A stretch of 35,343 nucleotides of DNA. Origin: a virus. The stretch lies in IMG/VR virus record IMGVR_UViG_3300045051_000408, positions 1 to 35,343 of that record; one strand, 5' to 3'. The position numbers were made by a program, and so were the translations under genes. Below are positions 1 through 4,608 of this stretch, piece by piece. Position 1 is the first letter of the stretch, and each line of letters starts with the position of its first letter. The notes beneath the pieces were generated by a model. The model was not told the origin of the DNA. It searched no databases and worked only from the letters and a program-made list of their open reading frames with translations.

Positions 1-127
1 TTTATCTGCAATCTCATGAAGCTCAGCGATCTGCTCAGGCGAATAAACACCAGCTTTTGAGCTTCTACGAATGTCCGTAAGTTTCGCTGTCGAAAATAGC
101 GCGACATTTACCGAGTCGTTTTGATTT
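1..127. repeat. Left copy of 127-bp terminal direct repeat (contig circularity)
   Basis: These bases are identical to 35217-35343. The hydrolase reading frame is open through both copies and only finds its stop when the two ends are joined, so the molecule is circular or circularly permuted. A length of exactly 127 is a common maximum k-mer in de Bruijn assemblers, so this is most simply an assembly overlap and not a packaged terminal repeat. Confidence 0.93.
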
Positions 128-624
128 CCACCTAGAACATAAATGCCACTTGTGGTTTTCTTCACAAAAAACCCCACATGACCATAACCGCTCTTGGGGC
201 TTGTGCGCCAGAAAGTCACAATATCGCCAGGCAATGGCGCAGCTTTTACACTTACGCCCCATTTTTCAAAGGACCTTGCAAGCTGCTTGTTAGTTGAACC
301 CATGCCAACCTTCTCTAGCGCCCAACAGACAAAACTTGCGCACCATGGGACTGAATCCGCCCAACCGAACAGGTTTTTAATCGTCGAGTATTTGTGATAC
401 TCCATGATCTGAGGGTTTGATTTATCACCTGGCACCTCTGTAATGCCAATTTGACTTGCGGCTTGTAATAAAACGGCTTTATTTCTAAACATGATCACCT
501 TCTCTGTGGTTACGGGTTTTAAAACGGGTTCGGGCTCTGGGGCTTTTGTGATTTTCTCAGCCTCTTCAAAGTATTTATTTATAAGGTCCACTAATTCTTT
601 TAAGATGAGCTTTATCTTTTCCAT
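1..624 (-). CDS. CHAP-like peptidoglycan hydrolase (endolysin candidate), cut by contig start
   Basis: This is a likely phage lysin of the CHAP/NlpC-like fold, cleaving peptide bonds in peptidoglycan. It runs 208 codons from ATG 624 to base 1 and continues at 35216-35172, giving 222 aa. Visible motifs are WCASF (candidate nucleophile Cys95), LPGDIV (about 131-136), GHVGFF (candidate His149) and GGNQ (165-168). Residues 1-44 form a charged, proline-containing extension. A second in-frame ATG at 492 has its own ribosome site (AGAAGG five bases upstream), so a shorter product is possible. The gene follows the methyltransferase stop directly (GAGGACCTATAAATG carries that stop and this ribosome site). 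Family assignment is from motifs only; a virion-associated hydrolase is an alternative. Confidence 0.82.
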   Translation of the reverse strand, partial: MEKIKLILKELVDLINKYFEEAEKITKAPEPEPVLKPVTTEKVIMFRNKAVLLQAASQIGITEVPGDKSNPQIMEYHKYSTIKNLFGWADSVPWCASFVCWALEKVGMGSTNKQLARSFEKWGVSVKAAPLPGDIVTFWRTSPKSGYGHVGFFVKKTTSGIYVLGGNQNDSVNVALFSTAKLTDIRRSSKAGVYSPEQIAELHEIADK

Positions 625-2232
625 TTATAGGTCCTCGATTTCTAATTGTTGTTTTGTGTGTTCAATGCGCTTTTGAGCTATGGCGTGATATTCTGGGTCA
701 CGCTCGATGCCGACGAAATTAAAGTTTAGGTTTTTAGCTGCGACTAAAGTTGACCCGCTCCCAGCAAATGGGTCAAGTATTGTGCCGTTTGGTGGTGTTA
801 TGAGTGTGATGAGGTATTCCATGAGCTTGATGGGCTTTACGGTGCTATGGAAATTATTTGTTTTTGCGGCGTCTTTTATTTGTAACAGCGTTGGCAATGC
901 AGCACGAACGACACCAAGGAGATATGCCGTCTTTTCGCTTGTAGTATTCAGCTCTAATTGATTTATGAACGAAACACTTTCGGCAAGGCTTAATCCATTC
1001 GCCTCTATCGTCCTGATAGCATCCTGAATGCTCTCTCTTGTGTTCAAGTTTAGAGATACATTCGAGGTTTTCAACTCTGTTATCGTCTTTAATACCGTTG
1101 ATATGGTGAATATCATGCCCTTCGGGTATTGCTCCGAAATGCTGTGACCATATATGTCTGTGCTCCATGACGAGTCGTCCGCCAAAATATCTGCGGACGT
1201 ATCCTTTACGAGTTCGAGCATGGCCGTTAGGGCCGACTTTAGGTCCTGTTTTTCCCACGCATCGTTTTCCCAGACGAGAAATGAACTGTCAAGCCCACGA
1301 TTGCGCTCGGATTTTGAGGCTTTCGCGACATAGAAAAATCGGGAAGCGCCGCCGGAGTCGTTAAAACCAAGTGGAATATCTTGAGCGCCCATTCCGAAAG
1401 ACTGAGTGCGCTTACCGCCGCGAGACCCGCCTTTGCTTAAACCGAGCTCCCCACTTTGCGCATCGAGCATTTCAGCGGCCCGTTCATCGAATAACACGTT
1501 AGCAGGCCAGCGGCCTTGCACTTGAGAATAGTGCGAATGCTGAGCTTTTTGTCCTTTAGCTTTATAGCTTTGTGAAAAACTATTTCCTTTTTTATGAGAG
1601 ATAGTAATTGTGTCTGTCCCAATCCGCGTCCCATCAATATTGATAGCACCTGTGCCATATTTTAAAACATTCTCAGCAAGTGTTAGCCCCTTCTCTAAAG
1701 GCTTTCGTGCGAGGCAGATTGGCTCGTTTGCGGGCTTAAGTGCTGAGCCCCAGCCGTCCCATTGTTTGGCTTCTGGTGTTGCTGGTCTTGTTCTTATAGC
1801 TCCAGCAACACCGTCTCTAAGTCCCGAGTCAAAAACCCCATCGTCGTTATCGGTCGGGTTTCGGCGCAAAAAGTCCTCATCAACATAAGTTTCGCCTTTA
1901 ACGCCCGCCATTTTATCAATCGCTTTACTGACATTGTGAGACTTGGGGAAGCCTGAGCCATAAATCCACATCACTTGATCGCGAATTTCAAAGCCAGCGT
2001 CTTCAATATTTACAACCATGCGGTGATAGGTTCTGGTCCCGCCAAAACTTAAAACGTGGCCACCGGGTTTTAATACTCGATACACTTCGCGCCAAATATC
2101 AACACTTGGCACGTCGTAATCCCATTTTTTATTCATAAACGCTAAACCGTACGGCGGATCAGTCACCACAGCATCAACCGAGTTATCAGCCAATGTTTTC
2201 ATTTGCTCTAAACAATCGCCGAGTAACAACAA
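625..2232 (-). CDS. Beta-type N4-cytosine/N6-adenine DNA methyltransferase with internal insertion
   Basis: This is a SAM-dependent amino-methyltransferase, probably masking phage DNA from restriction. The catalytic DPPY motif is at residues 25-28 and the SAM-binding DPFAGSGST at 487-495, the motif IV-before-I order of the beta class. TVKP just after the insert and GIERDPEY near the C-terminus are family-typical. At 535 aa it is about 130 residues longer than expected. The excess lies between KASKSERN (about 320) and NNFHSTVKP (about 455), exactly where an HNH gene occupies another frame (854-1258). The methyltransferase frame stays open through the insert, so the protein may carry a frame-shadow domain of unknown effect. 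It lies between the lysis proteins and the hydrolase in the late unit. Confidence 0.88.
   Translation of the reverse strand: MLLLGDCLEQMKTLADNSVDAVVTDPPYGLAFMNKKWDYDVPSVDIWREVYRVLKPGGHVLSFGGTRTYHRMVVNIEDAGFEIRDQVMWIYGSGFPKSHNVSKAIDKMAGVKGETYVDEDFLRRNPTDNDDGVFDSGLRDGVAGAIRTRPATPEAKQWDGWGSALKPANEPICLARKPLEKGLTLAENVLKYGTGAINIDGTRIGTDTITISHKKGNSFSQSYKAKGQKAQHSHYSQVQGRWPANVLFDERAAEMLDAQSGELGLSKGGSRGGKRTQSFGMGAQDIPLGFNDSGGASRFFYVAKASKSERNRGLDSSFLVWENDAWEKQDLKSALTAMLELVKDTSADILADDSSWSTDIYGHSISEQYPKGMIFTISTVLKTITELKTSNVSLNLNTRESIQDAIRTIEANGLSLAESVSFINQLELNTTSEKTAYLLGVVRAALPTLLQIKDAAKTNNFHSTVKPIKLMEYLITLITPPNGTILDPFAGSGSTLVAAKNLNFNFVGIERDPEYHAIAQKRIEHTKQQLEIEDL
854..1258 (-). CDS. HNH endonuclease nested out of frame in the methyltransferase gene
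   Basis: This encodes a 134-aa HNH_3-type nuclease, presumably a homing endonuclease. The core HDIHHING (48-55) followed by DDNRVENLE (58-66) supplies the histidines and asparagines of the HNH fold. The C-terminus has a zinc-ribbon pair, CRKC and CRSC, and a basic tail. It lies wholly inside the methyltransferase gene on the same strand in a different frame. The start is uncertain: GTG at 1258 is used here, and a stop sits nine codons further upstream in this frame with no ATG between. No good ribosome site is visible, so translational coupling or a programmed frameshift are possible. The nuclease motif is convincing; independent expression is inferred. Confidence 0.8.
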   Translation of the reverse strand: MGKTGPKVGPNGHARTRKGYVRRYFGGRLVMEHRHIWSQHFGAIPEGHDIHHINGIKDDNRVENLECISKLEHKREHSGCYQDDRGEWIKPCRKCFVHKSIRAEYYKRKDGISPWCRSCCIANAVTNKRRRKNK

Positions 2233-3426: not shown

Positions 3427-3875
3427 GATAGACCCTTACCCTCTAGTGCTTTGCGGGCTTCTTTTTGATTATTCAAACACTTATCGCAAATAGCGGAATA
3501 GTCTAGCTCCTCAAGCGCCTCACGCAGCTTTTTCACTTGAGCCTCTGCTTTATTTCTGTCTATGGCGTTTAACTGTGCGCTGTCCACCATGAAGTTATAT
3601 TTCGACTTCCAAACATCAATCTCCGCTTCATACTCTTTGGCCCTTTTAAACCAGAACATCTCCTCAGCTTTGTGAGCTGAGGTCAATTCTTTTAGCTTGT
3701 CAACCTCCGCTTGCATCTCGGCTATGGCGGCGTATTCAATGACGTGAAAAATTTTATGTTCTTCTCTTTGGGATCGAGACCAATAATCTAAGCTATAACC
3801 CCAGTCATGTTCTGTTTCATTGACATAAAACTCCCTAAACTTTCGCTCGTCGAGTGTGGGCTTTGGATTACTCAT
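3423..3875 (-). CDS. Coiled-coil hypothetical protein, last gene of the early block
   Basis: A 150-aa protein with a tryptophan/tyrosine-rich N-terminus (about 14-33) followed by a long charged helix likely to be coiled coil (about 50-85, 105-125) and a late CDKC pair. No family recognised. The ATG at 3875 has GAAAGG upstream. A 12-codon reading frame (3906-3868, MSIKPTPKGDHE) with its own AAAGGA site ends across this start codon and could be a translational leader. The 139 bases between here and the next gene hold nothing else recognisable. Confidence 0.65.
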   Translation of the reverse strand: MSNPKPTLDERKFREFYVNETEHDWGYSLDYWSRSQREEHKIFHVIEYAAIAEMQAEVDKLKELTSAHKAEEMFWFKRAKEYEAEIDVWKSKYNFMVDSAQLNAIDRNKAEAQVKKLREALEELDYSAICDKCLNNQKEARKALEGKGLS

Positions 3876-4014
3876 GGTCGCCTTTCGGGGTGGGTTTAAT
3901 GCTCATAAAAATCCTTTACTTTACTTATGCTTGCTATTCGCTTCATTGCATTTCTATACTTTACTGCACGTCACAAGGCCATGCCTCACCACGCCCCGCG
4001 AGACTCAACGGCAA

Positions 4015-4608
4015 TTAATTTTTTACTTCTATAAACTCAATCACATGAAACTTACCAAAAATTCCACCCTTTGAAACTCGAAAAGAGCCGATGCCAGAGC
4101 GCTTCCCAGCATCCTGTAACATTTCTTGCACAGTTTCGGTGGCAACAATTTCATCGTCAATTTGTAACTCTAGCTCCGTAAACCACTTATCAAAACGTGG
4201 GCGACAAACGGCGACAGCACCTTTTTGGTGATTTGTTGCGCGTCTTACGTCAACCTCGAAATCGTTTATTGGTGTTTGCATTTCTTCGTCTGCAAAAAGC
4301 TGACTTGAAATTGTCGTTGGACTTACAATCCCTTTTATAATTTGCTTAAGACTTTTTCGCTGGGAGTTCTTTTGCTTATACTCCGTTGCTACATAAGCCA
4401 AAGCGCCAGTGATATATTCCGTTGGGATATAAAACGTACCGTCATCGCTTTTGTAGGCGCATTTCTCTGCGATTTGCCGTGGTGTTTCTTCACCCTTATC
4501 TTTCTTTTTTGTTGTCTTGGTTCCAAGAAGTCCGAACAATTCGTCCTCTGTGAATCTGTGTTGCAAAAGCGGCGTTATGCCCTTTATTTTTACCTTTATC
4601 GTTTTCAT
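4015..4608 (-). CDS. Conserved phage protein with RAMP-like features
   Basis: A 197-aa protein starting MKTIKVKIKGITPLLQHRF. The start at 4608 has AAAGGAG seven bases upstream; the frame extends to 4710 but that ATG lacks a ribosome site. The short strand followed by G-I-T-P-L-L, the basic mid-region and the glycine-rich GSFRVSKGGIFGKF near the C-terminus (about 172-185) resemble the ferredoxin-like RAMP fold of Cas7-type RNA-binding proteins. I believe similar orphan proteins occur in phages, but I cannot search. There are no cas genes or repeats here, so if the likeness holds it is a stand-alone nucleic-acid-binding protein. It lies in the early replication/recombination block. Confidence 0.7.
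   Translation of the reverse strand: MKTIKVKIKGITPLLQHRFTEDELFGLLGTKTTKKKDKGEETPRQIAEKCAYKSDDGTFYIPTEYITGALAYVATEYKQKNSQRKSLKQIIKGIVSPTTISSQLFADEEMQTPINDFEVDVRRATNHQKGAVAVCRPRFDKWFTELELQIDDEIVATETVQEMLQDAGKRSGIGSFRVSKGGIFGKFHVIEFIEVKN

Follow-up and report, generated by a model that had tools for sequence, protein, structure and literature searches.

The window, i.e. the whole stretch of 35,343 nucleotides that was analyzed (IMG/VR virus record IMGVR_UViG_3300045051_000408), carries on the minus strand a phage DNA methyltransferase (MTase) gene, within which an HNH endonuclease ORF is hidden in a different reading frame. The features at the locus are as follows, in the direction of reading:

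625..2232, minus strand: phage beta-class N6/N4 DNA MTase ORF, 535 aa, TTG start, open through the insert
2149..2160, minus strand: MTase catalytic motif DPPY, residues 25-28, intact
856..1296, minus strand: insert in its probable extent, starting with GGGCTTGACA and ending at the HNH stop; exact ends not fixed
1287..1296, minus strand: GGGCTTGACA at the 5' edge of the insert, holding a -35-like TTGACA
854..1258, minus strand: hidden HNH_3 endonuclease ORF, 134 aa, GTG start at 1256-1258, TAA stop at 854-856
845..847, minus strand: second stop codon (TAG) in frame with the HNH gene, within CAT-AGC of HSTVKP
832..849, minus strand: MTase motif X, HSTVKP (HPTVKP in nearly all empty homologues)
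754..774, minus strand: MTase SAM-binding motif DPFAGSG, residues 487-493, intact

A CHAP-domain gene (PF05257, E 1.5e-9), likely an endolysin, is the next gene downstream of the MTase and shares its strand (window positions 1-624).

The MTase ORF matched the Pfam family N6_N4_Mtase (PF01555, E 2.3e-33) over residues 19-521, and its motifs are found in the beta-class order, with DPPY ahead of motif X and the SAM-binding motif. An earlier note on this DNA had reported an extra stretch between the KASKSERN and TVKP motifs of the 535-aa MTase, and this was confirmed: the spacing from KASKSERN to HSTVKP is ~150 residues in the window and ~15-60 in insert-free relatives, and ~140 additional codons lie between SERN and motif X. 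In the MTase structure model both core parts were mostly well predicted, and the additional segment, or bridge, was helical at ~58-82 and little informative.

The protein encoded in the other frame matched HNH_3 in Pfam (PF13392, E 1.8e-18) and has a zinc ribbon; with the HNH motif and the cysteines intact, its earlier description as an HNH/zinc-ribbon nuclease holds. HH51-52, N60, N64, H73, H77 and the zinc-ribbon residues C92, C95, C116 and C119 are invariant in 22 relatives. The structure model of the HNH protein was confident (pLDDT 91.6). Foldseek gave no significant match with this model; a profile search and a second structure comparison identified the homing endonuclease I-HmuI as the nearest protein (profile E 0.0098; structure Z 7.6, residues 9-80). 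MTase codons begin at position 2 of the HNH codons, and the third frame of the HNH stretch contains many stops.

HNH endonucleases, including I-HmuI, are often found in introns and inteins (PMC11855218), and related HNH genes sit within inteins, so that the segment might be lost from the product through RNA splicing, protein splicing or ribosome bypassing, in which case the host frame, i.e. that of the MTase, would be irrelevant. However, of these routes only protein splicing requires an open frame, yet the frame is open. Moreover, no Hint/Intein_splicing domain was matched in the window protein, although this domain was readily found in the terminase relatives, and the Rfam search gave no intron match at the gathering threshold, which a very divergent intron could escape. 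Removal of the segment is therefore extremely improbable, and the proposed absence of an intron or intein agrees with both searches.

Homologues without the insert were found, as the earlier note had asked for, but the exact ends of the insert could not be fixed because the host segment varies in length. The stretch is no old conserved MTase domain: most homologues lack it, and its sequence is dictated by the HNH frame. At the first insertion site (site A, between SERN and motif X) the same layout is present in L081, an IMG/VR contig whose HNH protein is 69% identical to that of the window, and the other nested carriers are L001, L087, L009, L099, L101, L103, L110 and the fragment L082. At the second site (L005 and L008) an RFF/RFFY-like motif flanks the insert on both sides. 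The third site is occupied in mycobacteriophages Pollywog, MISSy, ShiLan and Starcevich and in Cylindrospermopsis phage Cr-LKS3, with an LKPxxEPIxxARKP-like motif on either side of the insert. The fourth site was found in the MTase of Escherichia phage BUCT618 (L088:1890-2495), in which an out-of-frame, zinc-finger-rich HNH gene of a different type (PF13391/PF01844) adjoins a repeated SKxID motif; no near copy of this MTase was detected in the E. coli genomes or other phages searched. A single MTase ORF of L099 hides two HNH genes (2319-2813 and 3471-3911) and is occupied at both the first and the third site. The HNH genes at all four MTase sites lie in the same relative frame.

The only nested site-A case with a host-frame stop is L009, in which a TGA or TAG is located near 4470, between HPT and VKP and just downstream of the HNH gene; this stop may reflect decay or an assembly error.

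The sequence GGGCTTGACA at the 5' edge of the insert is common to the window, L081, L099, L101, L103 and L009, and TTGACA is present at this position in 0 of ~50 empty homologues. In L101 (3386-3413) and L103 (3341-3368) TTGACA is followed after 16 bases by TATAAT, a perfect sigma-70 consensus, and in L009 after 18 bases by TAGAAT. No good -10 box was found behind TTGACA in the window, L081 and L099. The site-A element may thus bring its own promoter, or the TTGACA region may be part of the homing site. At the other edge, L081, L099 and L082 end their HNH gene with the TAG contained in CAT-AGY, by which HPTVKP becomes HSTVKP; the window keeps that TAG behind an earlier TAA stop. HST in motif X is otherwise rare (2 of 48 counted), and we infer that an MTase residue was changed so that the HNH gene gained a stop codon.

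The open host frame was evaluated against two null models: each HNH protein was recoded with local/phage codon usage or, more strictly, its own synonymous codons were shuffled. A host-frame stop arises only where an HNH codon ends in TA and the next base is A or G, or where it ends in TG and the next base is A; in practice these are codons for Leu, Ile, Val or Met. As HNH proteins are low in these residues, the host frame, starting at HNH codon position 2, is stop-poor. For the window alone, 4.3 host-frame stops were expected with P(0)=0.0047 after recoding, and the synonymous shuffle gave P(0)=0.079. Because of this natural scarcity of stops, the open frame of the window gene alone is only moderately unlikely by chance.

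All nested copies that were found use the same relative frame. The 75 nested HNH genes, a set that was itself defined by an open host frame, contain 0 host-frame stops, compared with 191.3 expected after recoding and 81.7 after shuffling. In their third frame 592 stops were counted and 546 expected; in the corresponding frame of 34 HNH genes outside a host ORF these numbers were 136 and 118. Since the nested set had been chosen by its open frame, an independent check was performed in which genes were classified by homology of both flanks alone, and here the host frame was open in 69 of the 73 flanked HNH genes. Of the four exceptions, two apparently split the MTase, the C-terminal part having a new ATG: the first insert of L101 (L101:2585-3109) and the insert of L102 (L102:3468-3851). 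Here related HNH genes interrupt the MTase frame with stops, which looks like a division of the gene into two.

Such splitting inserts, together with the stop-poor frame and the P values of 0.005 to 0.08 for the window alone, would fit an insert that kills or splits the MTase, with the open frame being a coincidence of HNH composition. This is nevertheless very improbable, since the family has 0 stops where 191 were expected, the MTase motifs are intact on either side of the insert, and the MTase flanks diverge most at third codon positions. At the family level, the sequence comparisons thus provide strong evidence for selection on the open frame. The argument that a random frame is seldom free of stops therefore stands across the family and is weaker for the window alone, and the view that selection keeps the MTase readable through the insert is borne out by the stop-free nested genes. 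As all nested copies lie in a stop-poor frame from which the remaining stops are absent beyond chance, one stretch of DNA encodes both the full-length MTase and the nuclease.

The type of selection was assessed from two-frame rates, for which changes were counted by their effect in both frames. The median rate ratios of 19 nested MTase pairs were ~0.29 for the HNH frame and ~0.96 for the host frame, and control pairs of HNH genes without a host gave 0.23 and, in the corresponding frame, 0.91. The HNH frame is therefore under purifying selection and the host-frame peptide not measurably so. With a low HNH ratio and a host-frame ratio as in the controls, selection holds the bridge free of stops and does not maintain its sequence, and the nuclease is the product that is conserved. 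A conserved domain was rejected for the bridge on the basis of the host-frame ratio of ~1. A two-frame constraint had also been considered from the lower third-position divergence of close nested pairs; it was not supported by the two-frame count and is therefore not claimed.

Beta-class MTases carry their target-recognition part in the region before motif X. The bridge directly precedes this motif and might contribute to MTase function, for instance as a new target-recognition segment, with both products selected for their sequence. In the window and its close relatives L081 and L099 the host-frame identity is indeed above prediction; recent common origin suffices to explain this surplus, and weak constraint is also possible. 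In contrast, in diverged pairs the HNH frame alone predicts the host-frame identity that is observed, and a bridge that is absent from many homologues and evolves in the host frame at the rate of host-less controls is unlikely to have such a function.

On a tree of the MTases, which was built largely without the insert by a quick method and has several long branches, site-A carriers are scattered among empty MTases, with 6 state changes, at least 3 of which are forced by well-supported branches. In the site-A pairs compared, HNH identity exceeds MTase-flank identity. Both the scattered carriers and the more similar HNH genes agree with homing.

Taken together, it is highly probable that an HNH homing-type endonuclease gene was inserted directly in a phage MTase gene, without an intron or intein. 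The stop-free bridge joins the SERN and HPTVKP motifs of a full-length MTase, which in this explanation would remain active because the bridge lies in a variable segment ahead of motif X. The nuclease would be made by internal initiation and would cut empty MTase alleles of co-infecting phages, after which the HNH gene would be copied into the cut allele by repair. No clear promoter or ribosome-binding site was found for the window HNH gene, which counts against this explanation. The earlier proposal of a homing insertion tolerated by overprinting is retained as far as the out-of-frame, homing-type HNH gene is concerned; the overprinting is limited to the avoidance of stops, the sequence of the bridge not being measurably conserved.

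Of the HNH relatives, nearly all of which were fetched by HNH similarity alone, 56 fall in one homology group of large ORFs. The scanned ORFs of this group are mostly phage large terminases with an intein, inside which the HNH gene is located out of frame. An in-frame intein splicing domain together with an out-of-frame HNH_3 gene and an open host frame was observed in the terminases of L183:1000-3351, L191:2050-4032 and L123:2767-5034, and further in L083:783-2930, L114:1024-4041 (two hidden HNH genes), L187, L189, L196 and ~45 more loci. Several of these terminase loci come from contigs of bacterial genomes (Planctomycetota, Hymenobacter, Piscinibacter and Patescibacteria). In L106:2632-4251, a DNA MTase holds an intein (PF14890, E 2.3e-9) within which an HNH gene is hidden out of frame; this case links the bare and the intein-borne forms.

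Chances are about even that hidden out-of-frame HNH genes are widespread, with a fixed relative frame and several MTase sites, and that in terminase inteins, also in contigs of bacterial assemblies, they replace the usual in-frame endonuclease domain, so that intein and nuclease occupy different frames of the same DNA. Such genes would represent a third route for a homing gene inside a coding gene, with neither splicing nor splitting, the host being read straight through. The composition of the HNH protein enables this read-through and predicts the frame that is used. Hidden HNH genes may account for unusual insertions seen in annotated methylases and terminases of phages, and offer many natural cases for testing the origin of overlapping genes.

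The most similar known system is the ShiLan domain of mycobacteriophage MTases (Arsenault, Gosselin, Gogarten 2025, Genes 16:178, PMC11855218), which had first been noticed in an earlier study (Gosselin 2023, PMC9957025): an HNH gene is hidden there, the host frame is open, splicing was not detectable and the carriers are patchily distributed. The window shares these features: an out-of-frame HNH gene is nested in a phage MTase of the same family in the same relative frame, the host frame is free of stops, no intein or intron is detectable, the distribution is patchy, and I-HmuI is the nearest solved structure. The ShiLan domain differs in its site between two copies of the LKPxxEPIxxARKP motif, in its restriction to mycobacteriophages, and in its HNH protein of 195 aa with two zinc fingers, which is only distantly related to that of the window. 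Pacc40 gp60, described as a second hidden HNH-like ORF in a phage MTase (PMC11855218), is likewise out of frame with an open host frame; its host, however, is a divergent helicase-methylase, and the site and nuclease sequence are different. I-HmuI (PDB 1U3E) has the HNH fold and motif in common with the window protein, but is intron-encoded, and the C-terminal zinc ribbon of the window protein lies outside the match. Phage homing genes that split their host gene, as cited in PMC10448857 and PMC5418858, also lie directly in a coding sequence with no splicing element, but there the host gives two proteins, whereas the window MTase is one ORF.

Among the papers searched, which did not include a possibly relevant actinophage-intein preprint (Gosselin 2025), none on hidden HNH genes in terminase inteins was found. 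New contributions here are the frame rule and the null model behind it, rates for both frames, the four insertion sites, hosts outside actinophages and the hidden HNH genes in terminase inteins. As the ShiLan domain has been described and phage ShiLan is itself among the third-site loci, the arrangement in the window was already known in kind, and the window insertion is, judged by its sequence, a further case outside the mycobacteriophage group of the ShiLan domain.
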